Of a DNA stretch of 38,026 nucleotides, positions 4,612 through 30,988 are shown in pieces (position 1 is the first letter of the stretch; each line of letters starts with the position of its first letter). The position numbers and the translations under genes were made by a program. The stretch covers positions 1-38,026 of the forward strand of contig JAKSKO010000019.1 of assembly GCA_024401715.1 (NCBI GenBank). Reading direction: 5' to 3'. A model generated the notes under the pieces. It made no database searches. It had not been told where the DNA came from and saw only the letters and a program-made list of their open reading frames with translations. The stretch is from Bacteroidales bacterium (GTDB taxonomy: Bacteria > Bacteroidota > Bacteroidia > Bacteroidales > UBA932).

Positions 4612-7014
4612 TTACTCTATTACCACTGTATTTTCGGCAGTTGTGTCAAGCTCTGGAAGCACAACGCTCATTATGTTGTTTTTAACGGAGGCCTGAACAT
4701 CCACTGCCTTGCCGTTCACCAGAACCTTGGAAGGAGCCTGGCTTCGGTCCGGTAGAAGCACGCTGAGCCTCAGAACATCGCTCTTGCCGCTATAAGTGCC
4801 CTCGGCCTTTGAAATCTTTACAGTCAGCGTCTTGCCGCTTAGGGCCTTGGTGAAGGTAATCTTGCTGAAATCGGTGTCGTAGGCCATGCTGCTGCCGTCA
4901 TCCTCGTAATGGGTGTAAACGGCCTTGCCTGCGCCAGGGACAACCAGCAGACGGAGTTCGCAAGTTGGGCTCTGGAGATTCTGTATACCCTCATGGGCCA
5001 TAGGAATCAGGCTGCCGGCCTTGGCATACCATGGATTCTGGTCAATACCATAGTAAAGGGTCTTGGTGCTGCCGCCCTTGTGCATCTTGTGCTGGGCCAT
5101 GTCATACCAGTCGTTGCCTGCAGGGAACCACATCTTGCGCTCTGTCTTGCCTGTCTGTGTATCCATAGGCTGGCAAAGGACAGTTGCAAGGATATTGTCG
5201 CCGAACATGAACTCCTCTTTCCAGCTGTAGGCGTTCTCCACCTCAGGATAATAATAGTAGAGAGGGCGGCACATGCTTACGCCTGTCTCGTAGCACTGGC
5301 GGGCAGCGTCATAGATATATGGAGAAAGGGCGTAACGCAGCTCGATGGCCTCTTTCATGTACTGATAGTGATCCTCGTATTTCCAGATGCGGCGGTCCAG
5401 GAAGGCCGATTGGGTGCTGTGTGTCTTGAAGATAGGGGTGAAAACGCCATACTGCAGCCAGCGGGTGTAAACCTCGGGATTCGTAGGGCCCTGTTTTCCC
5501 CTGTGCTGCTGGTGTCCGCCAATGTCGTGGCCCCAGTAGCCATAGCCCACATTGGATGCCGTTGCCGTGAAATATGGCAGGAATGCAAGAACACTCCAGT
5601 CGTCATAGGTGTCGCCGCTGAAGCCAAGCTGGTAGCGGTGGCTGCCCAGGCCTCCCCAGCGGTGATAGATAAGCGCACGCGGAGCCTGCTTGCCCTGTGA
5701 TACGGTCTGGCGCACCTTGTCATTGAAGAAGGTATAGTTCAGCCAGAAGGTGTTGCTAAGGTCTTTCACATAGCGGCTCTCCCTCCACTGCTGCCAGTCC
5801 AGCCACCAGAAATCCACGCCCTGGCGCTCCAGAGGATGGATGACGCTGTTGAAATAGGCATCGGCCCACTCCTTCTGCGACATGCGGAAAGGAACAGGGG
5901 CGTTGTAGCCTGCCTTGCCTGCTGGTTTTTCCACGCCGGCATACTGGTACGGCTCTTCCGTATATACATAGTCCTTAGGGCCATCATAGTCCTGTGTGCG
6001 GCCCAGATAATCCTGGCGGAAAGCCCTGTAGCAATCCTCGTAAGGGCGTATGCCCGATGCCGGATGCAGGTTGAGGGAAGTCTTGAAGCCCATGGAATGA
6101 AGCTCCTTCAGGAAACCTTCTGGATCCGGGAAAAGATCGCCGTTCCAGGTGTAGCCTGTCCAGCCGCGGCCCTGCCCGAATTCGTCACGGCCTATGCGTT
6201 TTTCCATATCTTTCCAGGTGTGGTGCCAGTCCATGTCCACTATCATCACGTCCATTGGAATCTGGCGCTCTCGCATCTCGCCGGCCAGCTCCAGCATCTC
6301 CTGGTCCGTATAAATCCAGTAGCGGCTCCACCAGTATCCAAGGGTGTATTTCGGAGGAAGAGGGATATTGCCTGCAACCTTGGTGAAATCTGCCAGTGCT
6401 GCCTTGTAATCGTGTCCGTAGGCGAAGATATACAGGTCCTGACGGTCTCCGGCCGGTCTTTCGGCCACCCATTCGCCCCAGTCGCTATCATCCTTCACCA
6501 GTATGTGGCGGGCGCTTTCGTCAACTATGGCCCAGCCGTCGCGTGATAGGATGCCGTCCTCAAGATCCTCCACACCGTATGCCACCTGGCCAAAGCCCGT
6601 GCAACCGTCCAGGGTGCGTGTGGTGCCCTTTAGGTTGGCCGATGCATCGGCCCCAGGTTTCCAGCTGACGCTTCTGCCGTTCATCGGGAACACCACCGAA
6701 AGGTTGGCATCGGTGAACTTGCCGTTACCCTTGTATGTGAGTGTAAGCTTTCCTGTCTTGATGGTTACGCCTTCGCCTTTACGTACGGTGCTGAACTGCG
6801 GAACAGGAAGTTCGCGGTTGATGATTGCCAGGGTGGCATTGTCCTCGAATTTGCCGTCTTCGGCCCATTCCATACGCACAAGACGGTCTGTAAGCACGGT
6901 GAAACGTGCGTTTCCGCACACAACCACTGCCTTCTCATCGGCCTTCGGATTGTTTTGGGCACTTAGCATCATTCCCATCAGCAGCATCAGGGCTGCAGCA
7001 AAAAATCTTTTCAT
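4612..7014 (-). CDS. Exported GH31 family glycosidase
   Basis: An 800-residue GH31 retaining alpha-glycosidase. The signal peptide is MKRFFAAALMLLMGMMLSA with cleavage before QNN. A galactose-mutarotase-like N-terminal beta domain is followed by the TIM barrel. The nucleophile region reads FWWLDWQQW, with Asp406 as the expected nucleophile. The acid/base region reads FSGDTYDDW (Asp468), followed by the GYGYWGHDIGGH segment typical of GH31. The WLDWQQW form differs from the usual WLDATEPE or WxDMNE, so the specificity may be unusual. An upstream in-frame extension of 69 residues to 7221 is rejected because it precedes the signal peptide and overlaps the divergent gene; ATG at 7023 is a possible alternative. 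Confidence 0.9.
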   Translation of the reverse strand: MKRFFAAALMLLMGMMLSAQNNPKADEKAVVVCGNARFTVLTDRLVRMEWAEDGKFEDNATLAIINRELPVPQFSTVRKGEGVTIKTGKLTLTYKGNGKFTDANLSVVFPMNGRSVSWKPGADASANLKGTTRTLDGCTGFGQVAYGVEDLEDGILSRDGWAIVDESARHILVKDDSDWGEWVAERPAGDRQDLYIFAYGHDYKAALADFTKVAGNIPLPPKYTLGYWWSRYWIYTDQEMLELAGEMRERQIPMDVMIVDMDWHHTWKDMEKRIGRDEFGQGRGWTGYTWNGDLFPDPEGFLKELHSMGFKTSLNLHPASGIRPYEDCYRAFRQDYLGRTQDYDGPKDYVYTEEPYQYAGVEKPAGKAGYNAPVPFRMSQKEWADAYFNSVIHPLERQGVDFWWLDWQQWRESRYVKDLSNTFWLNYTFFNDKVRQTVSQGKQAPRALIYHRWGGLGSHRYQLGFSGDTYDDWSVLAFLPYFTATASNVGYGYWGHDIGGHQQHRGKQGPTNPEVYTRWLQYGVFTPIFKTHSTQSAFLDRRIWKYEDHYQYMKEAIELRYALSPYIYDAARQCYETGVSMCRPLYYYYPEVENAYSWKEEFMFGDNILATVLCQPMDTQTGKTERKMWFPAGNDWYDMAQHKMHKGGSTKTLYYGIDQNPWYAKAGSLIPMAHEGIQNLQSPTCELRLLVVPGAGKAVYTHYEDDGSSMAYDTDFSKITFTKALSGKTLTVKISKAEGTYSGKSDVLRLSVLLPDRSQAPSKVLVNGKAVDVQASVKNNIMSVVLPELDTTAENTVVIE

Positions 7015-7129
7015 ATTTTCCATATATCCAATTTTTGTAAAGATATGAAACTTTACCTTAAAAAGGTATTCAAATATGCATTTCCAAAGAATTTTGTATA
7101 TTCGCGTTGGGTACCCTGAGCTTTGACTT
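7015..7129. promoter_or_regulatory. Divergent regulatory region between GH31 and the membrane regulator
   Basis: This 115-base A/T-rich stretch must hold both start signals. The best leftward candidate is TATCTTTA at 7038-7045 (one mismatch to TAnnTTTG), 23 bases before the GH31 ATG. The best rightward candidate is TATATTCG at 7097-7104 (one mismatch), 25 bases before the regulator ATG. Neither has a well-spaced TTTG. The arrangement would let the regulator control its own gene and the GH31 gene from one site. Confidence 0.4.
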
Positions 7130-9649
7130 ATGAATAAACAACGCCTACTTATTCTTTGCATACTGGCTTTCATTTCCGCGCTTTGCCTTCCATCGCGTCT
7201 GGAGGCGATAAACACGGACAAACTTGAATATGGATTAAGGATAAAGAGTTATCCGCTGTCGAAGTCGGAGTTTACCAGCTTTGATCTTGACTGCGGCGTA
7301 CCTTTCTCCACAGGCGGCAGGAACTTCAAGCTTTCCTTCAGCTTGAAGACACGTCCGGAAAATGTCTTCGGAACAATCTTCCGCATAATTACAGAGAAAG
7401 GGGACAACATAGACCTGATGTACACCATAGACAGGAAAGGTGAACATTATCCCATGCTGGTAACGGGAGAGCAGATATGGATTATCCCTTCTCCCATAAC
7501 TCTGGACCAGTGGGTGGACGTAAGTGCCGAACTTAATCCCAAAACGGGCGAAATCATCCTTAACTACGACAAATCCACCTTCAAGGTGAAGGACGCCGGA
7601 ACCAAGAATGCGAAAAAGCTTAGGATTTCCTTCGGTCTTTGCGATTTCGAGGGCTACAGGCTGGATGACGTGGCATCGGTGGATGTCAAGGACATATGCG
7701 TGGAGAAGGATGGAAAGCTTATACGTAAATGGCTGATGTCCCTCCATGACGGCGACATCTGCTATGACGAACTTGCCCACATTGCGGCAAAGGGAACCAA
7801 CTGCCAGTGGCTTATAGACCGCTACATAACCTGGGAACCGCTGTGGACCGGAAGCTTTAGGAACGAACCTTCCGTGGCGTTCAACCCGGACGGTAAATTC
7901 TATATCTACGACGGCGAGGGCCCGATAATCACCTATGATATAGCAGCCCCAGAAGGAGCCAGGGAATCACGCCTTGCAGTTCGTCAGGGCCATTCTCCTG
8001 CCAATGCCCCGGGCTTGCTTCTGTATCTTCCCCAGCACAAACAGCTTCTGTCCTACAATCTGGACGACGAGATGTTCTCCCTGTTTGACGAGGCCAGGGG
8101 AGCCTGGACCTTCGACCAGGACAGAAAACCGCAGAAAGACTGCGACTACTATAACAAGACAACGGCGCTTCATCCGTCAGAACAGATATTCTATTCCTTC
8201 GGCGGATACGGCCACTACTATTTCAAGAACAACCTTATCGTGTGCAGCCCGCACGGCCAATGTACAAACATTGTCCTTGACGACATTACGCCGCGTTACA
8301 GCTCTTCCTCAATCGTAAAGGATTCCCTTCTGTACATCTTCGGCGGACGCGGAAACCTAAGCGGCAAGCAGGAACTTTCTCCGCGCTACTACTACGACCT
8401 TTACACAGTGGACCTGAAGACCTTCAAGGTTACAAAGGAGTGGGAATTCGAGGGGCTCCCCGAAGCAGGCAATTTCATCCCGGGAGAGAATATGTTCTAC
8501 AATGCCGCCGATGACAGCTTCTATACCATCTGCAACAAGGAAGGCGGCACCCTGCTTAGGATAAGCCGCACCGCACCGGAGTTCGAGATAATGTCGCTCC
8601 CTACATTGGGTGGCGGCAATTTCCAGTATCTGAACAACAGTCTCTTCCATTCTGAAGGCTGCAGCAAGATATATGCGGCAAGAATCACCTCAAAGGTGAA
8701 CAAGGAGTCCGAGGTTACCATAATGCAGATGAACTTCCCGGCCATCCCGGCAGCGCTTCTGCATCAGAGTCCGGAGCTTCCGGAAAGCATGAGGCACAGC
8801 AAGCTTCTTACCATAGCACTCATAATCCTGGTTGTGCTTGGAGCCGGCGTAACAGGCTATCTTGTGGCATATCACAGGAAGAGGGAAGAGAAACAGGAGA
8901 ACGTGATTGAGGCCTTCACCCAGGATACAAAACATTATGACTTCGGGAAGAACAGCATCTGCCTTTTCGGCGGCTTCAAGGTTATGGACAAGGACGGAAA
9001 CAACATCACCTCCCAGTTCACCCCTACGCTTAAGTATCTCATAGTGCTCCTTATCCTGCACAGCGACGTTTCGCACACCGGAATATCAAGCTCCAACCTC
9101 AACAAGATTCTCTGGTACTACAAGCCCGATGAATCGGCAAACAACAACAGGAATGTGTTCATAAGCAAGCTAAGGACCATCCTGGAGCAGATGAGCGGCG
9201 TAAGCATCATCAACAAGAACAAACTCTGGAGCATAGAGTTCTCCGATGGCGCGTCCTGCGATTATCTGGAGGCCATGCGCATATTCAAGGAGTCCCGCAA
9301 TGCCGATGTTAACAAGCTTATAGAACTGCTGCTTTACGGCATTATGCTGCCGAACACGGAGGTGGACTGGCTGGACAGCTTCAAGGGGGATTTCTCCAAC
9401 AAAGCAATCGATTTCCTCACAAGGCAGTTCTCACGCACCGATGTGCCGGATGACGTGCTGATACGCACCGCCGACACCATATTCATGCATGATTTCCTGA
9501 ACAAGGATGCACTCATCAACAAGTGCAAGATATTGTGCCGTCAGGGCAAGAGCGGCATGGCAAGGTCTTGTTACGACAACTATTGCAGGGAGTACAAGGA
9601 TGCCATGACTGAAAGCTTCGATATGAGCTTCAAGGAGATTATCGCCTGA
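7130..9649 (+). CDS. Membrane-spanning sensor-regulator: LamG-like and kelch propeller outside, winged-helix regulator inside
   Basis: An 839-residue one-component regulator. A signal peptide (about 1-26) leads to a LamG/concanavalin-like beta domain (about 35-200), then a kelch-like propeller (about 225-545) with blades such as FYSFGGYGHYY and LLYIFGGRGN. One transmembrane helix (about 559-581) is followed by a basic RKREEK stretch. The cytoplasmic part has an OmpR/PhoB-like winged helix (about 608-705: GGFKV, FTPTLKYLIVLL, NNRNVFISKLRTIL) and an alpha-helical C-terminal region (about 715-839) resembling the helical activator domain of SARP-type regulators. The outer half is expected to bind glycan and the inner half DNA. 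It is divergent from GH31, and its last 11 bases overlap the convergent end of the glycan operon. Domain limits are estimates; the regulatory role is inferred. Confidence 0.75.
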   Translation: MNKQRLLILCILAFISALCLPSRLEAINTDKLEYGLRIKSYPLSKSEFTSFDLDCGVPFSTGGRNFKLSFSLKTRPENVFGTIFRIITEKGDNIDLMYTIDRKGEHYPMLVTGEQIWIIPSPITLDQWVDVSAELNPKTGEIILNYDKSTFKVKDAGTKNAKKLRISFGLCDFEGYRLDDVASVDVKDICVEKDGKLIRKWLMSLHDGDICYDELAHIAAKGTNCQWLIDRYITWEPLWTGSFRNEPSVAFNPDGKFYIYDGEGPIITYDIAAPEGARESRLAVRQGHSPANAPGLLLYLPQHKQLLSYNLDDEMFSLFDEARGAWTFDQDRKPQKDCDYYNKTTALHPSEQIFYSFGGYGHYYFKNNLIVCSPHGQCTNIVLDDITPRYSSSSIVKDSLLYIFGGRGNLSGKQELSPRYYYDLYTVDLKTFKVTKEWEFEGLPEAGNFIPGENMFYNAADDSFYTICNKEGGTLLRISRTAPEFEIMSLPTLGGGNFQYLNNSLFHSEGCSKIYAARITSKVNKESEVTIMQMNFPAIPAALLHQSPELPESMRHSKLLTIALIILVVLGAGVTGYLVAYHRKREEKQENVIEAFTQDTKHYDFGKNSICLFGGFKVMDKDGNNITSQFTPTLKYLIVLLILHSDVSHTGISSSNLNKILWYYKPDESANNNRNVFISKLRTILEQMSGVSIINKNKLWSIEFSDGASCDYLEAMRIFKESRNADVNKLIELLLYGIMLPNTEVDWLDSFKGDFSNKAIDFLTRQFSRTDVPDDVLIRTADTIFMHDFLNKDALINKCKILCRQGKSGMARSCYDNYCREYKDAMTESFDMSFKEIIA

Positions 9650-10841
9650 TAAGGGATTTAAGTCTGGTGGCTGCCTGGCCGGCCAGTTTCAGATAGTGGT
9701 CTCCCTCAACTTCGTCGTCCAGAGGGATGAAAGTGCTGCCGGGGCTTGCCTTCGGCAGTTTTTTTGCCAGCTTGAATATTGCCGTGCCCTCGTCTATCTC
9801 GTCAAACATGGCAATGTAGACCATTTGCGCCCCTGCTTCCAGCACATAGTCCAGCTGTTTCTTGAAGAAAGATCCTCCGTTGCGGGGGATGGTGGATCCT
9901 GTGTGCGGATAGCGCATGTTTTCCCATGAGAAGCCCGGGAAACACAGAGGGGCATAATCTATATTGTTCTCTTCAGCCCACGCCATGTCCTTGTTTATGC
10001 TGCCGCGGAAACGCTCATAGCTGTTTTCGTTGTATCGGCCCACAAACCATGGCATAAGGATGTCGCATTCGCGTATGATGGTGTGAAGATAAGGGTCCGA
10101 TACGGTGTCGCTGCGCAGTTCACGCCAGTTTGTGGGCACGCCTATCATCACGCTGAAACCCATTTCTTTCAGGCCGCGTATTATCCTGGCCCCCTCTTCA
10201 AGGCCGTAGCGGCGTCTGTCGTTGAAACCTATGCCCCAGACGGTTACAAGTGGCTTTCCGTTGTGATACAGGTAGGAAGGATTGGCCTCGTGCTTGAAAA
10301 GCTTGTGTGTGGCGGCAACATTTTTAATGTCTTCCAGAAGAATGTCCACACCGCCAGGCCCCATGCCGCTTAGGTCATACATTACGCATATGGCCCTCTC
10401 ATACTTGTTTGCGGCGGTCATGGCGTGCTCCAGCACCTTGTTGAAGTGGTTCAGGCCGCTGCTGTTGGATATTTCGGCCACAAAGCGCTGCATGAAAACC
10501 CCGTCAAGGCCATATTCGTTCATCCACCGGAAATGGGTGTCGACGGTGGAGTAGTCGTAAGGGGAAAATAAATACGCAGGTTCCCCGTCCTCAAAGCTGA
10601 AATCTGTCTTGTAGGTGTGTTCATACTCCGATACATCCGGCCAAAGGTCTATGGTACAGGAGCCCGGGGTGAAACCCCTTCGGCCCGTATAGTGATACCA
10701 GCCTCTGCCCGCACCGTCCTGCGGAGCATTGAACCAGCCCTGATAACCCGCCATCACAAGGCCCTTGTAGGAGTCATAGCTCCTGGCCTGTGACAGAAAG
10801 CACAGCAGCACAGCTGAAATGGTAAGGAGGAACCTGCGCAT
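9639..10841 (-). CDS. GH99/GH71-like glycoside hydrolase, secreted form
   Basis: A 400-residue enzyme with an N-terminal signal peptide (MRRFLLTISAVLLCFLSQA), so probably periplasmic. It begins with the diagnostic YKGLVMAGYQGWF and carries MFDEIDEGTAIFK near the C-terminus. Glu348 and Glu351 match the paired glutamates of the FNEWHEGT motif in GH99 endo-alpha-mannosidases. Family members fold as a single TIM barrel and cut internal alpha-linkages (mannan in GH99, alpha-1,3-glucan in GH71); the specificity of this bacterial subgroup is not known to me. It is the last gene of the operon, 8 bases after GH43, and overlaps the convergent regulator by 11 bases. A 44-residue upstream extension to 10973 is rejected because it precedes the signal peptide. 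Confidence 0.87.
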   Translation of the reverse strand: MRRFLLTISAVLLCFLSQARSYDSYKGLVMAGYQGWFNAPQDGAGRGWYHYTGRRGFTPGSCTIDLWPDVSEYEHTYKTDFSFEDGEPAYLFSPYDYSTVDTHFRWMNEYGLDGVFMQRFVAEISNSSGLNHFNKVLEHAMTAANKYERAICVMYDLSGMGPGGVDILLEDIKNVAATHKLFKHEANPSYLYHNGKPLVTVWGIGFNDRRRYGLEEGARIIRGLKEMGFSVMIGVPTNWRELRSDTVSDPYLHTIIRECDILMPWFVGRYNENSYERFRGSINKDMAWAEENNIDYAPLCFPGFSWENMRYPHTGSTIPRNGGSFFKKQLDYVLEAGAQMVYIAMFDEIDEGTAIFKLAKKLPKASPGSTFIPLDDEVEGDHYLKLAGQAATRLKSLIRR

Positions 10842-10849
10842 ATTGATGT

Positions 10850-11836
10850 TTATTTGCGAGGATATTTGATGGTCTGGATAGAACCGTCCTCGTTGAAATA
10901 CAGTTTGTCTACGCAGAGTGAACGCAGGCAGCCATGGTGCGAAATAGAGCAGTCGTGGTAGAAAAGATACCACTGGCCTTTGTATTTCACAACAGAGCCG
11001 TGGCTGGTGTCACAGTCTGTAGGTCCCAGGATTATGCCTTTGGTCTCCCATGGTCCCATAGGGTTGTTGGAAACCGCATAGCGAAGCTGGTTGCGTCCGC
11101 CAACGCCAGGTTCCTGGTGATTGTCGGCATACATGAAGTAGTACAGGCCGTTGTTCTTGAACACCCATGGGCCCTCGTGATAGTCACGCAGGCCGGTCAT
11201 GGCTTTCACCTCGCCGTCTATCTCTGTCATGTTGTCTTTCAGCTTCACGCCTATGCAGCGTCCGCCGCCGCCATAGTAGAAGTAAGGAGTGCCGTCATCA
11301 TCAATGAAAACGCAAGGGTCAATCATGGAGAAAGCGTCTCCAAGGCCCTCAAGATAACCAAGTACCTTGAAGTCGTTGGTAGGGTTGTCGCTTACCGCAA
11401 TACCCACTTTCCATGTGTTGTTCCAGTCTGTGCCCGAAGGATGAGGGAAATAGAAATAGTATTTGCCGTTCCTGTATGCGCAGTCCGGTGCCCACATGAA
11501 GCCGCCTTCCGGCCTGCCCCATTCCACATCGCGTGAGTGGAGGAACTCTCCGTGGTCTGTCCAGTTCACCATATCGTCTGTAGAGAAGACATGATAACCG
11601 TCCATAAGGTCGCATCCGCGCGGAGGGTCGTTGTCATGTGAAGGATAAACGTACAGTCTGCCGTCGGCCCATACATGTGCCGATGGGTCCGCTCCGTACA
11701 GATGTGTTATGAACGGATTTGCAGGCAGATCCAGGTCCACCACCTCTTCCTTTGCACCCTGTTTTGCACAGCTGCAGGAAATGATGGTGATTACAAGGAC
11801 TGTGAATGCAACCGCTTTTGTAATAAGGTTTTTCAT
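10850..11836 (-). CDS. GH43-type five-bladed propeller glycosidase, lipoprotein
   Basis: A 328-residue inverting glycosidase of the GH43 clan. The lipobox ends at Cys21 or Cys23. Candidate catalytic residues follow the family pattern: base Asp50 (ADPSAHVW), modulator Asp173 (IDPCVFIDDDG) and acid Glu221 (YHEGPWVFK). GH43 enzymes release arabinofuranose, xylose or galactose; the target here is unknown. It is very similar to the C-terminal half of the fusion protein encoded at 25718-27928, with runs of 35 and 30 identical bases (11466-11500 with 26343-26377; 11600-11629 with 26477-26506). It sits 18 bases after one GH99-like gene and 8 bases before another. Confidence 0.9.
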   Translation of the reverse strand: MKNLITKAVAFTVLVITIISCSCAKQGAKEEVVDLDLPANPFITHLYGADPSAHVWADGRLYVYPSHDNDPPRGCDLMDGYHVFSTDDMVNWTDHGEFLHSRDVEWGRPEGGFMWAPDCAYRNGKYYFYFPHPSGTDWNNTWKVGIAVSDNPTNDFKVLGYLEGLGDAFSMIDPCVFIDDDGTPYFYYGGGGRCIGVKLKDNMTEIDGEVKAMTGLRDYHEGPWVFKNNGLYYFMYADNHQEPGVGGRNQLRYAVSNNPMGPWETKGIILGPTDCDTSHGSVVKYKGQWYLFYHDCSISHHGCLRSLCVDKLYFNEDGSIQTIKYPRK

Positions 11837-11854
11837 TTTTCAGTGGTTTTTCTC

Positions 11855-13345
11855 CTACTTTCTTGCAGGAATCTTGTTTGAAAGAGGGATTTCGCCCCTT
11901 AGCATGGCTCCGGCCTGGCCTGTGATCCAGAGATAATGGTCTGTAGGAAGGTCGTCTTCCACACCCTGGAACTGTATATCCAGCTCCCAGGCGGTCTGGC
12001 ACCATCCTCCGGCTCCGAAGGTGATCTTTGACCTGTCATAGGTGATAGGATAACGTTTGTAGTTCCCGTTATCGTATACCACATAATAGTCCGTTGCCGG
12101 CTTGTTGCTTGGAACGTCTTTTTTGTTCAGCACCTTGAAGATGGCTGTGCCCTCGTCAATCTCATCGAACATTGCCACGTAAAGCATTTTGGCTCCGTTT
12201 GCAATGCCATAGTAGGCCTGATCCCAGAAGAATGTGCCTTTGTTGCGCGGTGCATAACCGTTGTTCGGGTGCATGTTGCGGTCGCATGAGCCCACGAAGC
12301 AAAGCGGAGCATAGCCCACCTTGTTTGTGGCGCACCAGGTGATATCGGCCTTGATAAGCGAAGCAAAGCTGCCGAAGCTGTCCGGACCGTATCGGCCCAC
12401 AAACCAAGGCATGATCACGTCCACGCTCTTGATAAGGGCTTTGAGCGCCGAACCGGACTCTGTGTCGTTGCGTCCCTCACGCCAGTAGGTTGGAACGCCC
12501 AGCATGATGCTGAATCCCATTTCCTTCAGTTTCTCCACCAGTTGCGAAACATCGCTTGTGCTGTACTCTTTCTTGCCTGCGAAGCCTACGCCCCACAGCA
12601 CGATAAGAGGTTTGCCGTTCTCGTACAGATAGTATTTCTGGCCGGCATTACGGTCAAATAGATGATATTTCTCTGCAATTTCACGTGTATCGGCAATCAC
12701 AGCGTCAACGGTGTTGCGTTTGGATGGCTCGAAACCTCCAAGGTCATACATCACGCATATTGCGCGCTGATATGTGTTGGAAGCCTTCATCGCCGACTCC
12801 AGAACCTTGTTGAAATGGTCTTTGCCGTCCGGGTTGTTCACAACCTCACCCACGAACCTCTGCATGAAAACGCCATCGATGCCGTAGTCCTTCATCCATT
12901 TGAAATGCAGGGCAACGGAACTCTCGTCGTAGGAGCTGAATACGTGGGCTGGGCTTCCGTCCGGATATTGGAACTCTGTCTCGTATGTCTTTTCATACTC
13001 GCTTACGTCCGGCCAGAAGTCTATACTGTTCTGCAGGACACCAGGCTTGAACATATCGTTCTCACGATAGTGATACCACTTGGTGTTGCTGTGGGTGGCA
13101 TGGCTGCAGCCGTCTCCCGGAGCGCCGAACCAGCCCTGATATCCGGCCATTACAAGGCCTGCGTATGTGTCGTACGGCTGGCCCTGTTTGTGAGGCTCGA
13201 ATCCCAGATTGTTATACTTCTCTTTCGGTTCGTCTTTACCCGGGTCGTCATCCACTCTACCTGGAATTACCTCCTTCCTGTCACAAGAGGCAAGAAGGAG
13301 GAAAATAGCAGGTAAAAGTACTGATAATACTTTCAGTTTGTTCAT
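11855..13345 (-). CDS. GH99/GH71-like glycoside hydrolase, lipoprotein form
   Basis: A 496-residue lipoprotein (lipobox LLLASC, Cys21) with a polar linker of about 35 residues rich in Asp, Lys and Glu that would hold the enzyme off the membrane. The catalytic domain starts at YAGLVMAGYQGWFGAPGDG and contains MFDEIDEGTAIFK with Glu395 and Glu398. Unlike its paralogues it has an insertion of about 45 residues after the catalytic motif (DYYVVYDNGNYKRY and following) before the shared final DHYLWITGQAG segment. It lies 10 bases after the DUF3823 gene. The anchor and its place right behind susCD suggest the surface endo-acting enzyme that makes oligosaccharides for import. Confidence 0.88.
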   Translation of the reverse strand: MNKLKVLSVLLPAIFLLLASCDRKEVIPGRVDDDPGKDEPKEKYNNLGFEPHKQGQPYDTYAGLVMAGYQGWFGAPGDGCSHATHSNTKWYHYRENDMFKPGVLQNSIDFWPDVSEYEKTYETEFQYPDGSPAHVFSSYDESSVALHFKWMKDYGIDGVFMQRFVGEVVNNPDGKDHFNKVLESAMKASNTYQRAICVMYDLGGFEPSKRNTVDAVIADTREIAEKYHLFDRNAGQKYYLYENGKPLIVLWGVGFAGKKEYSTSDVSQLVEKLKEMGFSIMLGVPTYWREGRNDTESGSALKALIKSVDVIMPWFVGRYGPDSFGSFASLIKADITWCATNKVGYAPLCFVGSCDRNMHPNNGYAPRNKGTFFWDQAYYGIANGAKMLYVAMFDEIDEGTAIFKVLNKKDVPSNKPATDYYVVYDNGNYKRYPITYDRSKITFGAGGWCQTAWELDIQFQGVEDDLPTDHYLWITGQAGAMLRGEIPLSNKIPARK

Positions 13346-13355
13346 AAATCAATTG

Positions 13356-14093
13356 TTAATTGGCTGCGGGAACCTCTATCTTCTTGATTTCAGAGTAGTT
13401 CCAGCTCTTGTATGTGTTGTTTATCTGGACACCCATCCTGCACCAGTAGGTGTAGCCCGGTTTCACCGGAAGGGTAACGCTGTAAACCTCGTTGCCTTCA
13501 CCGTCGGCAGTGCCAATCTTCTCCCAGTTCTTACGGATGTTAACCCTGTAGGAATCTGTGTAATAGTAGTCTATCCTGTTGCCTGCACCGCAGAACTGGT
13601 TGAGGCTGAGGAATGGACGTACCTCCAGAATCTGTGGAAGACCTGTTGGGATTGGAGCCTGAAGACGTGCAGACAAAGTAAGTTCAGCACCGTTAAGTTC
13701 AGTTGTAAAGTCCACTACATGCAGATATGGAACAACTTCGAAATCCTGAACAGCTCCTTTCTTGCCTATTGCCACGTTATAAGTTGTATCGCAAGGCCAG
13801 AAAGAACCGTCAAGAGGAAGCATGTCATATGTTCCCGAAAACAGACGCTCGTTGTTGTACGAACCATCCATTTTGATGGCAAGATCCTGTGGGGTAGGAT
13901 TTGTTGAATAGCTTCTCTCCCAGATACGGATATGTGTTGTTCCGTGGTCAAGAAGCATATTCTTGCCGGTAGTCTTGTCTATGAGGTTTCCGCTGATCTT
14001 TGCCTGCGGAGCATCGAAGTTGTCTATCTTCATGCAAGAGGCAAGACAGAAAAGCACTGCAACAGACAGAATTGTATTCAATATATGTTTCAT
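13356..14093 (-). CDS. DUF3823 family surface lipoprotein
   Basis: A 245-residue lipoprotein (lipobox FCLASC, Cys20). It matches the DUF3823 family commonly found directly after susD: an N-terminal transthyretin-like beta domain beginning ISGNLIDKTTG with IKMDGSYNNERLFSGTYDMLP, then a fibronectin-like beta domain in the C-terminal half. It is expected to sit on the outer surface and help bind or position glycan for the SusC/SusD complex. It starts 11 bases after susD. No catalytic motif is visible, and direct glycan binding is not demonstrated for the family as a whole. Confidence 0.82.
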   Translation of the reverse strand: MKHILNTILSVAVLFCLASCMKIDNFDAPQAKISGNLIDKTTGKNMLLDHGTTHIRIWERSYSTNPTPQDLAIKMDGSYNNERLFSGTYDMLPLDGSFWPCDTTYNVAIGKKGAVQDFEVVPYLHVVDFTTELNGAELTLSARLQAPIPTGLPQILEVRPFLSLNQFCGAGNRIDYYYTDSYRVNIRKNWEKIGTADGEGNEVYSVTLPVKPGYTYWCRMGVQINNTYKSWNYSEIKKIEVPAAN

Positions 14094-14104
14094 TGCACTA
14101 TCTA

Positions 14105-16087
14105 TTAATAACCATCATTTCTAATGAGCATAGGGTTCTTGTTGATTTCACCACCAGGAATCTGCTCATAATACCATCTTGAATCATAGTGAAGTTCACG
14201 TCCGAATGGGTTGGCCTCGTTCAGGTAGATATACTTGCCCTCGGCAATCACATAGTAGCCGGAAAGTGTATGAATCATATAGTTACTTGCGTAAACTGTG
14301 TGTGCGATTCTCCAGCGGCGCTGGTCCCACTCGCTCTGGTTCTCCAGACAAAGCTCGCGTTTGCGCTCCTCGCGGATGAACTGAAGGTTCTCGTCCAGCT
14401 CGTATCCGTAAAGCTCTGCGTCAAGCATCTCCGGATTAGGGTTATATGCGTGTGCTTTTGCACCGGCTCTCTCACGGATTTGTGCGATATAATCGAAAGC
14501 CTCCTTCTTGAGGTCTTCGTTGCCTGTTTCAAGACCAAGCTCGTATGCAGCCTCGGCATAGTTCATGAGTACCTCGCCATAACGGAAGACTTTGAAAGGA
14601 TGCCAGCTCTGGTTCAGTGCGCGTGTAGAAGGATCTGCATTGTAGTCAACATATTTCCTTACTGTTGTACCCATATAGCTGTAACCCTCGTCACCTACAC
14701 CTTTTGCATAACCGTGCAGGCCGTTTACCTTATATTCCACATCGCCGATTTTCCTTTTCTTTCCAGGGCTTTCCTCGCGGATGCGGTATTTCTCTGTATA
14801 CTCTGTCTCCACGTTGGTCTCCGGGCAACCGTCAGCAACGGTACCAGGGTACTCTGTGTAAAGACCGTACTGGAAATCAAGGACGGTGCCTGAAAGTGGC
14901 TCTGTCATACCGCTGAAGAAGAAGTTCGCGCGGCAGCGTGGCTCCATCTCCGGTGTGTTCCAGAATGCCTCAAGAGATTCGAAACGTATTGGCTTGTTGT
15001 CCTCGTCGATAAGTGCAGGGTGATCATAAAGGCTGATGAGCTCCCATGAAGGCTGGATTGCGCAGCCTACGCTCTGGGACATGCCTGTGCCCTTAGGGAG
15101 CACCATGTCGTCATAAGAGTGGTAAAGCTGTGTGTTCCAAGGGGATACAACGTTAGGAAGACCGTAATGCTTTACGAAGATATCCTCTGCGGTTGCCTCA
15201 ATGAAAATCTGGGTGTATGCCAGTTCTTTGTTTGCACCTGTGTGAAGGGTGTAGCCACCATCTTTAACGAACTTGCAAGCGTCGTATGCATATTTGAAGA
15301 ACTCTTTTGCGAGGTCTGCATCCATGCCCATGAGACCTTTGTCTGTAGCCTCACCGCTGATGCCCACATAGCCGTGGTATTTTGCCACAGAACCTGCGTA
15401 AAGCATTGCCTTTGCCATGAGGGCTGCAGCTGCGTATGCGTTGGCCCTGTAGCTGTCGCTGCGGTCCTTGCTGCCGTTATCCATGGCATATTTGAGATCT
15501 GCATAGATGAATTTCCAGCAGTCATACTCTGTATCACGCGGAACGCGAAGCTCCTCCAGTGGTGTGGTAGGATCAAGAACCTTGTCTATGATAGGCACAC
15601 CGCCATAGCGTTTCACCATTCCGAAGTAGTAGAGTGCGCGAAGGAATCGGCCTTCTGCCATAAGTTCCGCAAATCTCTGCTCTGTGAAATTCTCCTTATA
15701 GTTAGGAAGCTTCTCCAGGAAGTTGTTGATGTCGCGGATGCGGCCGTATGGCCAGTAACCCCATGCACCTGAAAGGTCGCCGTGACGTCCTGCAGTCTCT
15801 GCCGAAGAGGTGGAACTGTAAGACTTCAGAGCCTCCCACCAGTTTCCCTGCTGTCCTGCAGAGTTGGAGTGGCCATAGCCTACGCCGCCCTGATTGGAAG
15901 CCTTGTAAAGAAAGTCCTCGATAGGAGAGTCATTATAGATACCTGCAAGGTATTTCTTGACACCGAACTCGGAGTTCAGCAGGGTGCTTTCGTCAAGTAC
16001 TCCTTTAGGCTCGAGATCAAGACTGTTGCAAGATGCACCGCAAATGAGTGCAGCTGCCAAGATTATATATGTATAAACTTTTTTCAT
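14105..16087 (-). CDS. susD: SusD/RagB family outer-membrane glycan-binding lipoprotein
   Basis: A 660-residue SusD-like protein. The signal peptide ends in a lipobox (ICGASC, Cys20), followed by the usual NSLDLEPKGVLDESTLL start. The tetratricopeptide-like helical core contains EGRFLRALYYFGMVKRYGGVPII and the C-terminal RERKRELCLENQSEWDQRRW stretch, both hallmarks of the RagB/SusD fold. It caps the SusC barrel and captures glycan. The ATG at 16087 is preferred over 16102 because it begins the signal peptide. The gap from susC is 14 bases. The protein is longer than many SusD proteins (about 550), suggesting extra loops around the binding site. Confidence 0.93.
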   Translation of the reverse strand: MKKVYTYIILAAALICGASCNSLDLEPKGVLDESTLLNSEFGVKKYLAGIYNDSPIEDFLYKASNQGGVGYGHSNSAGQQGNWWEALKSYSSTSSAETAGRHGDLSGAWGYWPYGRIRDINNFLEKLPNYKENFTEQRFAELMAEGRFLRALYYFGMVKRYGGVPIIDKVLDPTTPLEELRVPRDTEYDCWKFIYADLKYAMDNGSKDRSDSYRANAYAAAALMAKAMLYAGSVAKYHGYVGISGEATDKGLMGMDADLAKEFFKYAYDACKFVKDGGYTLHTGANKELAYTQIFIEATAEDIFVKHYGLPNVVSPWNTQLYHSYDDMVLPKGTGMSQSVGCAIQPSWELISLYDHPALIDEDNKPIRFESLEAFWNTPEMEPRCRANFFFSGMTEPLSGTVLDFQYGLYTEYPGTVADGCPETNVETEYTEKYRIREESPGKKRKIGDVEYKVNGLHGYAKGVGDEGYSYMGTTVRKYVDYNADPSTRALNQSWHPFKVFRYGEVLMNYAEAAYELGLETGNEDLKKEAFDYIAQIRERAGAKAHAYNPNPEMLDAELYGYELDENLQFIREERKRELCLENQSEWDQRRWRIAHTVYASNYMIHTLSGYYVIAEGKYIYLNEANPFGRELHYDSRWYYEQIPGGEINKNPMLIRNDGY

Positions 16088-16101
16088 AACCTCTGTCATC
16101 A

Positions 16102-19100
16102 TTAGAACTTGATATTAACACCGAAGTTGTAAACCCTGTTCACAGGATAGTTGTAGAACAGCACGCTGTTAGAGCCAGTGTTCACACCGCCGTTTGTACC
16201 TGGACGCTCAGGATCGATGTTCTTGAGCGGGCTGAAGGTAAGGAGGTTGTAACCGCTGAAGTAAATGCGGAGAGATTTCAGTTTGATCTTGTCTTTCCAT
16301 TTACCAGGGATGCTGTAGCCTATCTCCAGAGGCTTCAGACGGATGTAAGATGAGTTGCGGATTGCTGTAGAACCTGTGTTGAAACTGTGTCCTGTTGCAG
16401 GATAGAAGCCAGGTACCCACTCTGTGCTTGGGTTCCATGGGTCATCATTCACGTTCACAGTGTGCCAACGGTCCTTGTAGATGTCCAGTGCGGCACCACC
16501 GTTGAATGGACCAACCTCTGTGAACACCTCGCTGTACTCGTTGTAGATACCTGCGGCACCTGCCCAGTTCATGGAAACGTCAAGACCTCTCCACTCTACG
16601 CCTGCGTTGATACCGTAGTTGAATACAGGAAGGTTGTATGATGCAACAGGATGTGAGTCGTTGCTGTCCACGATACCGTCACCGTTCCAGTCCTCGTACC
16701 AGTAGTCGCCAGGAAGGGTGCCCTGGCCGTAGTTCATACCTGTGGTAGGGTGGTTCTGAATCTGGTCGTAATTCTGGAAGCGTCCGCCCTCCTGAACAGA
16801 GAACCAGATGTCTTTGTTACGGCCTGATACCGCACCTCTGCGCCAGTTCTCCATAGAGTTGCCTGCCTGTGAATCAAGGTGATAGACCCAGCGGTTCTTT
16901 GTTGCCGAAATCTGGCCGGAGATATAGTAGCTTACCTCACCCACTTTGTGGCGGTGGCCCAGCTCAATCTCGTAACCGAAGGTTGTATCGCTCTCGATAT
17001 TCTCCTGAGGCATTGAAGCGCCCACTGTGCCGGGAAGCACAACAGAAGAAGTTGCAAGAAGGCCTTCACGGTCGCGTTTGAACACCTCAACGGTACCATA
17101 CAGCATCTGTTTCCACAGGCTGAAATCAATACCTGCGTTGTATGTTGTTGCGGTGTACCATGTAAGGTTGTAGTTAGGGATTGCTGTAGGGAGCACACCT
17201 GTTGTGAGTGCGTCGCCGAAGAACCATGCCTGGGTGTCTTTCTCGATATTGTAACCGGTGAAGATTGAAGGATAGGTTCCTGCGCTGCCGTCATCACCCA
17301 TCATACCCCATGATGCACGAAGCTTCAGGTTGGAGATGATAGTGGTGTTGTTCTTCACCCAAGGCTCCTCGCTGATACGCCAACCTGCAGATACTGAAGG
17401 GAATACGCCCCAGCGTTTGTTCTTAGGGAACTTTGAAGAGGCATCGGCACGTACTGCAACGTCAATGATATATTTGCTCTTGTAGTCGTAGTTCACGTGG
17501 CCGATGAAGGCGCGGCGTGTCATGTCGCCCAGGCCGCCCATTGAACCAATCTGGTTCTCCTCCTCGCCTGCAAATAGATATTCGCTGTCCAGGAGCATCT
17601 GGCGCTGTGCATAGAAGCCGTCCCATTTGTTGTGGGTTTCCTCGTACATTGCCATTGCGTTCACGTGGTGCGCGTTTGCGAAAGTGTGGTCGTAGTTTAC
17701 TGAAAGCTGCAGAACGGTTCCGCTGCTAGGGTCTGTAGAACGTCTTACAGAACCCGGATCGTTGCGTTTGTATGTCTGAAGGCTTCCGTCAGGATTTTTG
17801 CTGTAGAGGTTGTAGGTACGCAGATATGAAGAGTTGTCTGTAGTGTAGTAGTCATAGCTGTAGAAAGCTTTGGCATTCAGACCCTCCACACCCGGGATAT
17901 CATAGGTGAGGGCGAGGCTTCCGTTGAAGTTGAAGCGTTTCTCCCTGCGGTAACCTGTGAAGTTGCTGTTTGTTGTGGCAACAGGGTTGTCTGTCTCCAG
18001 CATCTCAGAATCGTAACCAGGGAGGTTGTGGTCGCCGTCTATCCAGGCCTCTGAAGTAGGACGGTATGTCCATGCCTTCTTGTAGACTGTCCAGATATCG
18101 GTGTTAGGCTGGTTTTTCTCGTCCATATAGCCGCTAAGCTGGGTGCTGAGGCGCAGGCGTTTGGTGATGCGTGCATCAACGTTTGAACGGAAGTTCCATC
18201 TGTTATAGTTGAGAGAGCCGCTCTTGTAAGCACCCATCTGATCCATGTAACCCAGGTTGAAGAAGTAGTCCACCTTCTTTGAGCCACCCGATACAGACAG
18301 GTTGTACTGCTGCTGCGGAGCGTTCTTCATGAAGAGCTCGTCGTTCCAGTTTGTGCTAGGCTTTTTGCCGGAGCTGTACTGGAGCATCTGAGACCATGAA
18401 TACCTTGGAGTACCGCGCATAGGGTAGTTTCCGTTAAAGCTGTTGAAAGACTTCTCGTTCATCAAAAGCATGTGCGAAGCTGCATCAGTTGTTGAAGGAA
18501 CGTAAAGGAAGTTCTGGATACCCACGTTGGCAGAGAAATCAATGTCGAATTTGGCCTCCTCGCTTGAAGAACCGTGTTTGGTTGTAACAAGGATTACACC
18601 GTTTGCCGCACGTACACCGTAGATAGCTGCCGAAGCGTCTTTCAGCACGGATACGCTCTCAATCTCGTTGGCATCCATGCGTGAGAAGTAGCCCTGGTCG
18701 CGTGGAACGCCGTCCACAACGATAAGAGGGGTACCCATGCCTCGGATATCAATCTTGTTATCGAACTCACCAGGCTGTGAAGAGTTCTGTGTGATACGTA
18801 CACCTGCCACCTTGCCGGAGAGCATGTTGATTACGTTCTCGTTCTTCGTTACAACCATCTGAGAGTTGGTAACTGCAGAAACCGCACCTGTAAGGGTTGC
18901 CTTTTTCTGCACGCCATAACCAACGACAACTGTTTCCTCCAGGAAATTTGAATCATTGTTTAGAACAATGCGGAGAGATGTGGATGATGCAGGAACAATC
19001 TGGGTCTCATAGCCGATGAAGGATACCACCAGCTTCTGAGCAGGTTCCGCATTAATCTGGAAATTACCGTCCAGATCCGTAACCACGCCGTTGTTTGTGC

Positions 19101-19272
19101 CCTGCACCAATACGCCGGCACCAATCAGCGGGGCATTCTCGCTATCCACAACAACGCCCTTTACCAAGCGTTGTTGTGCATGTGCGGGAACGAACATCAT
19201 CACACAGAAAAGCATAGTCATGAATGATTTCCACAACGACTTTCCAGAATTATGTGATTGTCTGTTATTCAT
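16102..19272 (-). CDS. susC: SusC/RagA family TonB-dependent glycan transporter
   Basis: A 1056-residue outer-membrane importer. After the signal peptide (to about residue 33) comes a carboxypeptidase-regulatory-like beta domain (VKGVVVDSENAPLIGAGV, about 36-110), a TonB-box-like EETVVVGYG near 113, the plug domain with IDIRGMGTPLIVVDGVPRD and SVSVLKDASAAIYGVRAANG, and a long beta barrel ending in phenylalanine (NFGVNIKF). With SusD it forms the lidded transporter that takes up large oligosaccharides using TonB energy. The gene is intact and of normal length. The leader of 45 bases after the preceding lipoprotein gene holds no clear promoter, so it is probably co-transcribed from the gap at 21085-21239. 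Confidence 0.96.
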   Translation of the reverse strand: MNNRQSHNSGKSLWKSFMTMLFCVMMFVPAHAQQRLVKGVVVDSENAPLIGAGVLVQGTNNGVVTDLDGNFQINAEPAQKLVVSFIGYETQIVPASSTSLRIVLNNDSNFLEETVVVGYGVQKKATLTGAVSAVTNSQMVVTKNENVINMLSGKVAGVRITQNSSQPGEFDNKIDIRGMGTPLIVVDGVPRDQGYFSRMDANEIESVSVLKDASAAIYGVRAANGVILVTTKHGSSSEEAKFDIDFSANVGIQNFLYVPSTTDAASHMLLMNEKSFNSFNGNYPMRGTPRYSWSQMLQYSSGKKPSTNWNDELFMKNAPQQQYNLSVSGGSKKVDYFFNLGYMDQMGAYKSGSLNYNRWNFRSNVDARITKRLRLSTQLSGYMDEKNQPNTDIWTVYKKAWTYRPTSEAWIDGDHNLPGYDSEMLETDNPVATTNSNFTGYRREKRFNFNGSLALTYDIPGVEGLNAKAFYSYDYYTTDNSSYLRTYNLYSKNPDGSLQTYKRNDPGSVRRSTDPSSGTVLQLSVNYDHTFANAHHVNAMAMYEETHNKWDGFYAQRQMLLDSEYLFAGEEENQIGSMGGLGDMTRRAFIGHVNYDYKSKYIIDVAVRADASSKFPKNKRWGVFPSVSAGWRISEEPWVKNNTTIISNLKLRASWGMMGDDGSAGTYPSIFTGYNIEKDTQAWFFGDALTTGVLPTAIPNYNLTWYTATTYNAGIDFSLWKQMLYGTVEVFKRDREGLLATSSVVLPGTVGASMPQENIESDTTFGYEIELGHRHKVGEVSYYISGQISATKNRWVYHLDSQAGNSMENWRRGAVSGRNKDIWFSVQEGGRFQNYDQIQNHPTTGMNYGQGTLPGDYWYEDWNGDGIVDSNDSHPVASYNLPVFNYGINAGVEWRGLDVSMNWAGAAGIYNEYSEVFTEVGPFNGGAALDIYKDRWHTVNVNDDPWNPSTEWVPGFYPATGHSFNTGSTAIRNSSYIRLKPLEIGYSIPGKWKDKIKLKSLRIYFSGYNLLTFSPLKNIDPERPGTNGGVNTGSNSVLFYNYPVNRVYNFGVNIKF

Positions 19273-19317
19273 AAATAGATTTATGGGTTAATTGATTATA
19301 TAACCTGTTTCTTCAAA

Positions 19318-21084: not shown

Positions 21085-21239
21085 ACGAAAGTTATTTGGT
21101 TAATATTGATTGGTTGTTTGTTTGTGTTTTTCGTTGTTTTTGCTTGAAATTATATACAGCCCCTTAATAAAGGGTAGAAAAGAACCTTAATTAATGGCTG
21201 AATTTCCAAATTAAGTTTTTATTAATACTTAATCGGGCT
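21085..21239 (-). promoter_or_regulatory. Regulatory gap and A/C-rich leader ahead of the lipoprotein-susCD operon
   Basis: This is the longest non-coding stretch inside the minus-strand locus. On the transcribed strand the last 65 bases before the ATG are almost free of G and rich in A and C, a leader style seen before highly expressed Bacteroidetes genes. Further upstream are short inverted repeats: CCCTT/AAGGG (21161-21165 with 21170-21174), CTTAATT/AATTAAG (21186-21192 with 21209-21215) and ATTAAGT/ACTTAAT (21210-21216 with 21227-21233). No perfect TAnnTTTG box is present (best partial match: the TATATAATTTC stretch near 21145-21155), so an activator-dependent promoter or read-through is possible. 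Confidence 0.5.
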
Positions 21240-25705: not shown

Positions 25706-25717
25706 AATCTCTCTCTT

Positions 25718-27928: not shown

Positions 27929-27952
27929 ATGATTATAGTAATTAATTCATTA

Positions 27953-28165
27953 TCAACCTATTGCGTCCGCATCTGCGAAAGGGTTCGGATCCGAAGACCC
28001 TCACCCTTTCCGCCCGAAGCAGCTGTGCATTTTGCTTCCGGCATCAGAATTGGCCACCATTAAACTAACTTCACCACTATCAGTCCAAACATTTGTTGCG
28101 ATGCTTCCGTTTCCAAGTGGAGTGGAATCGTTTTCATAGCTGTTCAAACTTAACCACTGCACAGC
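27953..28165 (-). pseudogene. Decayed N-terminal piece of a DUF5703-type domain, fused to the GH2 gene
   Basis: The last 55 residues of the GH2 frame (AVQWLSLNSYENDS, TPLGNGSIATNVWTD, MVANSDA) resemble the N-terminus of DUF5703/GH95-like proteins, where a PLGNGDIGxNVW motif begins the mature protein. Past NSDA the match breaks off, but it continues in another frame (LLRAERVRV, near 28000-28025) and then returns to the original frame beyond the TGA (SSDPNPFADADAIG, ending at TGA 27953-27955). This is the pattern of two small frameshifts in a relic. Hand-counted GC is about 42% for 28021-28200 against about 59% for 28201-28320. The family assignment is from memory of the motif. Confidence 0.5.
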
Positions 28166-30976: not shown

Positions 30977-30988
30977 TCTTCCAGTGTC

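Follow-up and report, generated by a model that had tools for sequence, protein, structure and literature searches.

Three regulator types specific to Bacteroidetes, namely SusR-like proteins, hybrid two-component systems (HTCS) and extracytoplasmic function (ECF) sigma/anti-sigma pairs, have been proposed for polysaccharide utilization loci (PULs), the sites of the SusR-like type being predicted 67 or 77 bp apart (according to the sections of PMC3878776 drawn upon here). Streptomyces antibiotic regulatory protein (SARP) activators are described, in excerpts of PMC10936776 and PMC5930380, as binding direct repeats located 11 or 22 bp apart with side-by-side protomers, the 3' repeat being positioned 8 bp from the -10 element, and the survey of transmembrane regulators by Demey et al. 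(2023) is built on Pfam DNA-binding models (PMC10269533). The present analysis concerns a gene specifying a membrane-spanning protein in a stretch of 38,026 nucleotides from a Bacteroidales bacterium (positions 1 to 38,026 of contig JAKSKO010000019.1, assembly GCA_024401715.1), this whole stretch being referred to as the window.

An earlier note, made from the sequence of the window alone, had interpreted this protein as a regulator of the adjoining glycan genes, an interpretation which is supported by the current findings. We hold with good confidence that the protein is a one-component, membrane-tethered SARP-type activator of an alpha-mannan-type PUL, which would bind TTAA repeats with a spacing of 11 bp. 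Its topology, the homology of its DNA-binding module, the association of its family with particular loci and the repeat arrays that accompany this family were established by computation. Such a one-piece switch has probably so far remained unrecognised, with relatives that are widespread in Bacteroidota and often located beside the same enzymes; no description of the family was found at the level of titles and the beginnings of abstracts in the open-licence literature, which constitutes weak evidence confined to that literature.

Architecture of the regulator

The open reading frame (ORF) was confirmed to be real and to possess the layout described previously, encompassing an export signal, a weakly LamG-like domain, a kelch propeller, one membrane helix, and a winged helix followed by a helical tail (Table 1). 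Homologues were gathered in four alignments, designated A1 (24 sequences), A4 (51 sequences), A6 (63 cytoplasmic modules) and A9 (50 N-terminal domains), and a DNA pattern specifying the segment W..K....A.NNR.V.I retrieved at least 119 stretches, which served as the source of the 8-kb family loci discussed below; the family segment is present in all of the 119 matches listed except L105. Considering that a complete ORF of more than 780 amino acids with this same segment is found in 75 of the 119 matches listed, a chance fusion of a sensor with a DNA-binding module was ruled out.

The protein contains one strong membrane segment, whose best 19-residue window starts at residue 562 and is followed by the sequence HRKREEK. 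Exactly one membrane segment, located approximately 250 residues from the C-terminal end, is present in 45 of 51 aligned sequences (another segment being present in 2 of the 51), and lysine and arginine are more common after than before this segment in 44 of the 47 homologues scored, which represents a positive-inside pattern. An N-terminal hydrophobic segment exceeds a crude threshold in only 22 of the 51 aligned homologues, and the linker between helix and winged helix (approximately residues 583-606) is variable. For the exported part, the kelch propeller produced weak Pfam matches in the window protein itself, while one or another kelch model matches up to 23 of 24 homologues (E <= 0.1) and the family profile retrieves solved kelch propellers from the PDB. 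The LamG-like domain is weakly supported: Laminin_G_3 is the commonest Pfam match, being obtained for 5 of 50 members (best 6e-4), with no Laminin_G_3 match in the window protein itself and no useful match when the N-terminal domain profile was compared to the PDB.

Standard searches reveal little of the cytoplasmic part. The winged helix and tail of the window protein have no Pfam match, the curated cut-offs of Trans_reg_C and BTAD not being reached; an NCBIfam scan of the protein returned nothing near cut-off (with few weak matches among relatives), a single-sequence search of the PDB gave no significant match, and a profile search of the PDB with the cytoplasmic part found no useful or significant sequence relative. 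Among the 63 homologous modules, Trans_reg_C (15) and BTAD (7) are nevertheless the two commonest weak Pfam matches (E <= 0.5, best 0.008-0.009). A comparison profile was constructed from the winged-helix and BTAD region of ten proteins of the same phylum that the Pfam BTAD model recognises, against which residues ~607-839 align over 238 columns with an hhalign probability of 99.3% (E 1.1e-20). When the halves were compared separately, values of 95.1% (E 3e-8) and 98.0% (E 2e-13) were obtained for winged helix and BTAD, respectively, as opposed to at most 1.5% for the controls (reversed, eight column-shuffled and unrelated). This profile comparison argues decisively that the module is homologous to winged-helix plus BTAD (SARP-type) activators, a homology which sequence searches of Pfam, NCBIfam and the PDB miss. 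The earlier designation of residues 608-705 as a winged helix is borne out by this profile match, while the proposed OmpR-like winged helix with an activator-like tail is retained in part: the winged helix stands, with the SARP type (winged helix plus BTAD) being closer than a generic OmpR output domain.

Around the expected recognition helix, W662, N672 and V676 are invariant in the 24 homologues of A1, which were obtained without pattern selection; the invariance of W, K, A, N, N, R, V and I in A4 and A6 is imposed by the search pattern and was not used as evidence. Pfam detected no kinase (HisKA, HATPase), receiver or AraC-type helix-turn-helix (HTH) in the window protein, in agreement with the earlier note as regards kinase and receiver, and no sigma-70 region or anti-sigma domain. 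With its DNA-binding domain and membrane helix within one chain that is devoid of kinase and receiver, the protein corresponds to a transmembrane one-component build.

Tandem TTAA repeats at family loci

Direct TTAA repeats with a spacing of 11 bp are found upstream of 34 of 89 non-redundant family genes, as compared to 8.2 in shuffles, the upstream score being 8.8 versus at most 4.1 in five shuffled sets. The upstream regions of neighbouring genes at the same loci, which had been used as a first control, display the same 11-bp peak (40 of 153). Since the sites accordingly seemed to be common to the regulators and their neighbours, family-free and distant controls were added. In the intergenic DNA of two family sets, 45 and 146 TTAA pairs occur at 11 bp (means of 9.3 and 27.1, respectively, at other spacings) along with 14 and 43 perfect triples (0-3 and 0-4 at eight other spacings), lesser peaks being apparent at 12, 22 and 34. 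Triples are absent from sus-type loci that lack the family, where 6 pairs occur at 11 bp (mean 3.9), and likewise from 48 kb (30% GC) made up of 20 regions located away from family genes in the same genomes, where 9 pairs occur (mean 5.7). Regions that do not touch the start of a regulator gene still contain 107 pairs at 11 bp, versus 19-45 at eight other spacings, and 30 triples. Words such as CCTGAA, which had been the first motif leads, exhibited no convincing spacing pattern and were dropped as operator candidates in favour of the 11-bp TTAA signal.

Within family loci, a triple is located upstream of 14 of the 21 nearby GH92 (glycoside hydrolase family 92) genes and of 11 of the 43 SusC genes, the corresponding figures being 0 of 6 for SusC genes of the controls and 1 of 20 for GH92 genes at a distance. 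This last comparison is confounded, as the nearby GH92 genes that bear arrays belong largely to other classes (Mucilaginibacter, Dyadobacter etc.) and the 20 distant ones to four Bacteroidales genomes (G295, G202, G274 and G169). The lone distant GH92 gene with a triple (L266; G202:C2:309184) lies far from any family gene and is possibly an unlinked regulon member. In genome G202, triples near family genes include those at SusC promoters (contigs C3 and C6) and at a GH92 promoter (C1), and another triple is located upstream of SusC on C117 of G066.

The Bacteroidota -7 consensus is TAnnTTTG. In 9 of 46 arrays, a -7-like TAnnTT element follows the last repeat at +15, a modest preference, with no other offset occurring more than twice. 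The neighbours common to 38 operator-bearing loci (out of 40, the two lacking any gene start within 350 bp being excluded) are SusC (17), GH92 (16) and a GH99-like cluster (11), any other family being present in at most 4. The direct action on DNA that the earlier note had predicted gains support from these family-associated arrays at susC and GH92 promoters.

Distribution and neighbours of the family

The source genome (1.98 Mb, 79 contigs, 90% complete) contains one copy of the regulator and one copy of the cytoplasmic module. Counting this genome, homologues are present in 7 of 61 genomes of the set of relatives and in 17 of 295 genomes of the order, and they were also found in five plasmid records, of which four are from Persicobacter and one, matching in the cytoplasmic part only, from Parabacteroides. 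Eighty are named among the matches listed, including Pedobacter, Mucilaginibacter, Dyadobacter, Draconibacterium, Chitinophaga and Tamlana, which places the family in several classes of Bacteroidota. The two full-length plasmid copies whose annotation was checked are both labelled "hypothetical protein". The same module is attached in L020 and L022 to an exported part that contains LamG and, as judged by eye, a stretch resembling PLC, which represents sensor swapping, and in relatives of approximately 500 amino acids (L004, L021, L080, L098, L103 and L133) to a short exported part without kelch; of these, L080, L098, L103 and L133 were scanned and contain no perfect TTAA triple.

A survey of neighbouring genes confirmed that homologues adjoin SusC/D and glycoside hydrolase (GH) genes. 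SusD is located within 10 kb of 6 of 13 members (expected 1.57, P 0.0018; five genomes with SusD positions listed) and GH92 within 15 kb of 8 of 23 members (expected 1.34, P 2e-5; fourteen genomes, the window being counted), both calculations involving partly rounded genome sizes. Among the matches listed, GH92 is present in 23 of 118 family loci of 8 kb and SusC in 35 of 118, versus 0 and 3, respectively, of 40 control tiles of the same length; GH76 and GH125 also occur among 79 neighbours scanned. In L039 and L100, the regulator (43% and 41% identity) is convergent with the same PUL segment as in the window, while L111 has the order regulator-SusC-SusD and the regulator of L152 is divergent from DUF4988-SusC-SusD-DUF3823. 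The Persicobacter plasmid pPP5, whose regulator is 24% identical and is one of the "hypothetical" proteins, carries GH92, the regulator, GH92, a TonB receptor, SusD, DUF3823 and a GH71/99-like protein, interspersed with proteins sorted by the type IX secretion system. Despite altered gene orientations, locus content is alike in L039, L100, L111, L152 and pPP5.

The locus in the window

Table 1. Features of the regulator gene and its surroundings in the window (residue numbers refer to the regulator)
Feature	Position	Strand	Basis or remark
Regulator gene, ATG start, 839 amino acids	7130..9649	+	ORF and homologues
Signal sequence, residues 1-26	7130..7207	+	Hydrophobic segment from residue 6; end judged by eye
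LamG/ConA-like exported N-terminal domain, residues 31-232	7220..7825	+	Block conserved in 50 sequences; Laminin_G_3 weak in 5/50
Kelch-type beta-propeller, residues ~235-540 (outer limits inferred)	7832..8749	+	Kelch model matches and family profile
Single transmembrane helix, residues ~562-580, C-terminal flank basic	8813..8869	+	Hydrophobicity/charge scoring
Cytoplasmic winged helix, residues ~607-713, NNRxVxI segment at expected recognition helix	8948..9268	+	Profile-profile comparison, weak Pfam matches
BTAD-type helical tail, residues ~714-839	9269..9646	+	Profile-profile comparison, weak Pfam matches
Divergent GH31 gene, start ~7014-7023, sharing a promoter region of ~110 bp with the regulator	4612..7023	-	Pfam
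PUL part 1: DUF4988 protein, SusC, SusD, DUF3823, GH18/GH99-like, GH43, GH99-like	9639..21084	-	Pfam, cross-matches
Candidate operator-promoter of the DUF4988-SusC-SusD operon, TTAA-23-TTAA-15-TAnnTT	21147..21190	-	~63-106 bp upstream of start codon 21084
TTAA-N7-TTAA pair, 11-bp spacing, same promoter region	21211..21225	-	Inside the best-scoring weight-matrix stretch of the window
PUL part 2: GH31, GH92, GH43 with GH99-like N-terminal part, GH2, CotH	21240..32644	-	Pfam, cross-matches
AraC-family regulator gene, competing regulator adjoining the PUL	32756..33655	-	Pfam

The divergent GH31 gene mentioned in the earlier note is indeed present, and the 3' end of PUL part 1 overlaps that of the regulator gene, the two being convergent. 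The previous statement that the glycan operon has no HTCS or ECF/anti-sigma regulator of its own agrees with a Pfam scan of 20 window ORFs, which revealed no gene of either type. An AraC-family gene that the earlier note does not mention is, however, present at the upstream end of the PUL, on the same strand as the CotH gene and 111 bp upstream of it. This gene possibly specifies a second regulator, so that the locus may have one of its own.

When a weight matrix derived from other loci was applied to the 38 kb of the window, the best score was obtained at the promoter of the SusCD operon (21187-21244). The composite arrangement listed in Table 1 is found in this same promoter region and was not produced by any of 100 shuffled windows; it recurs at the orthologous L152 promoter in the form TTAA-11-TTAA-12-TTAA-15-TACTTT.

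Three GH71/99-like modules are present in this one PUL (9639-10973, 11855-13345 and 25718-27928), one of which constitutes the N-terminal part of a GH43 protein; they were found by cross-matches, the first (9639-10973) being below the Pfam GH99 cut-off. A CotH-kinase family protein is specified within the glycan operon (30989-32644). The divergent GH31/regulator promoter contains a perfect inverted repeat, TACCTT-AAA-AAGGTA (7054-7068); towards GH31, a TATCTTTA element is located at a distance of 16 bp from the TTAA of this repeat.

Proposed mechanism and alternative readings

Considering that a homologous module is accompanied, at many of its loci, by 11-bp repeats at a preferred offset from an element resembling a core promoter, a membrane-tethered SARP-type activator represents the simplest reading. 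The exported LamG-like/kelch part would sample the periplasm for a glycan fragment, most likely one derived from an alpha-mannose-containing glycan, and the single membrane helix would couple this sensor to the cytoplasmic module (winged helix and BTAD). The latter would then bind the tandem TTAA-core repeats, which recur every 11 bp (once per helical turn) a short way upstream of the -7 element, and this binding would activate SusCD, GH92 and related promoters. The signal would most likely cross the membrane through clustering of the protein in response to ligand, whereby cooperative occupation of neighbouring repeats would be favoured, proteolytic release being less likely. Recognition of these repeats by the protein, activation and an alpha-mannan-type ligand are predicted from homology and from the neighbouring genes (GH92 and GH99-like, along with the GH76 and GH125 noted above).

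Several results weigh against this reading. The alpha-mannan ligand is guessed from neighbouring genes, SusD is not significantly enriched within 5 kb of members (2 of 13, P 0.24; five genomes), and among the matches listed 60 of the 118 family loci of 8 kb contain none of SusC, SusD and GH92, as is also the case for L153. At least one perfect triple is present in 48 of 138 family loci, yet none is present in the remaining 90. In six whole genomes, whose counts are not fully out of sample as some loci belong to the motif-discovery set, triples are located at 34 separate places, only 4 of which are within 500 bp of one of the 13 family genes, and G295, G330, G169 and G266 have no triple within that distance (one being located ~5 kb away in G295). 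The window itself contains no perfect triple, and its best weight-matrix score of 5.7 compares to 15.6-43.2 for the training sites and to 5.8 for the best of five shuffled windows. The composite is not enriched genome-wide relative to a reversed control (2 versus 2 in G000, the source genome, 19 versus 13 in G295, 8 versus 18 in G202 and 26 versus 23 in G066), and since its spacing was picked after the window and the L152 orthologue had been viewed, the window site is only suggestive as an operator of the SusCD operon.

Among the alternatives, regulated proteolysis upon ligand binding, which would free the module as a soluble SARP-type activator, is unlikely. The variable linker (approximately residues 583-606) is compatible with such cleavage, as is the study of the AfsR SARP domain as a soluble protein (in the excerpt of PMC10936776), whereas the helix and its basic flank are conserved and no additional family (a protease, for instance) is common to more than 4 of the 38 operator-bearing loci. 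We consider it similarly doubtful that the AraC-family protein runs the PUL of the window, leaving the membrane protein with only the GH31/nucleotidase genes or a distant target: the AraC gene immediately precedes the CotH gene in the same orientation and the operator of the window is weak, but the 38 operator-bearing loci share no second regulator family, and L039 and L100 retain the regulator in convergent orientation with the same PUL segment.

That the protein is a repressor released by its ligand seems quite improbable. The regulator start is within 350 bp of an array in 20 of 47 regions, which is compatible with autoregulation, but the array lies upstream of the -7-like element with its last repeat 15 bp away, near the position bound by SARP activators. 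The prospect that the arrays are sites of another factor, or a general feature of AT-rich promoters, is slim: TTAA is itself AT-rich, the intergenic regions concerned have 31-35% GC, and the spacing of 12 is somewhat raised (45 versus 19-32 at seven others); against this, the spacing of 11 stands out over the lesser peaks, the equally AT-rich same-genome controls lack triples, and no other regulator family is common to the operator-bearing loci. Finally, a loss of DNA binding from the C-terminal part, which would leave an exported kelch protein of the glycan-binding or enzyme-like sort (akin to galactose oxidase or NanM), is very hard to credit, weak NanM/mutarotase matches in 2 to 4 of 24 homologues being outweighed by the invariant W662, N672 and V676 and by the TTAA arrays that accompany the family.

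With the membrane-tethered activator as the preferred reading of the window protein, we lean, with moderate conviction, towards a wider proposal, in which a Bacteroidota-wide, unrecognised class of membrane-anchored SARP activators would employ kelch/LamG sensors for alpha-mannose glycans and a single TTAA/11-bp operator code. This code would be common to SusCD, GH92 and GH99-like promoters, including unlinked ones. The module would also be carried by other exported sensors (PLC-like/LamG and short kelch-free), so that a family of modular receptors would exist alongside HTCS and SusR.

Comparison with known systems

CadC and ToxR are membrane-bound proteins with an N-terminal winged helix and a periplasmic sensor, and with neither a BTAD tail nor a signal sequence. 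The regulator resembles them in having a membrane-bound winged helix with a periplasmic sensor, but its winged helix is C-terminal, with a BTAD tail and a signal sequence, and the reverse domain order rules out this type. With the HTCS of PULs it has in common an exported propeller sensor that is joined across the membrane to a DNA-binding domain (PMC3878776, in the sections cited above), from which it differs by lacking kinase, receiver and AraC-type domain; membership of the HTCS and ECF sigma/anti-sigma types was rejected, as the Pfam domains of either are absent from the regulator.

The SusR-like type, as portrayed in those sections of PMC3878776, likewise combines a periplasmic sensor, one membrane helix and a C-terminal cytoplasmic DNA-binding part and is found near susCD. 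Five SusR-like proteins (L213, L215, L217, L220 and L225), chosen for their position and architecture in loci that have SusE/F matches, were used for comparison. All five contain DUF6377 as a strong Pfam match, mostly with TPR matches, together with another HTH, and this domain probably marks the SusR family. They share neither sensor nor DNA-binding part with the present family (module 0.2-0.4%, hhalign), and SusR-like membership of the regulator, which does not have the DUF6377/TPR build, was rejected. The transmembrane transcription regulators surveyed by Demey et al. are similar in being one-component proteins with a DNA-binding domain and a transmembrane segment, but, as the window protein reaches no Pfam DNA-binding model, that survey would probably miss it; the words kelch and BTAD are absent from the main text of PMC10269533.

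The closest likeness in the DNA-binding module is to the SARP/AfsR-type activators of Actinobacteria, to which it is homologous over its whole length. Many family loci additionally display 11-bp direct repeats near a core promoter element, as in the SARP excerpts cited at the outset (the window itself having only a pair and the composite), and a modest preference for one offset of the last repeat from the -7 element (+15, 9 of 46 arrays). The differences are that the module of the family, which remains below Pfam cut-offs, is found at the C-terminus, anchored in the membrane and joined to an exported sensor, whereas that of SARPs is N-terminal and soluble; that the core is TTAA instead of GC-rich heptamers; and that the family occurs at glycan loci, SARPs at antibiotic clusters. 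If the proposed reading is true, the protein represents a fourth, phylum-wide type of PUL regulator with a predicted operator, which opens a direct way to predicting regulons and to testing how a signal passes through one membrane helix, and suggests that the DNA-reading geometry of SARPs works outside Actinobacteria with a TTAA code.

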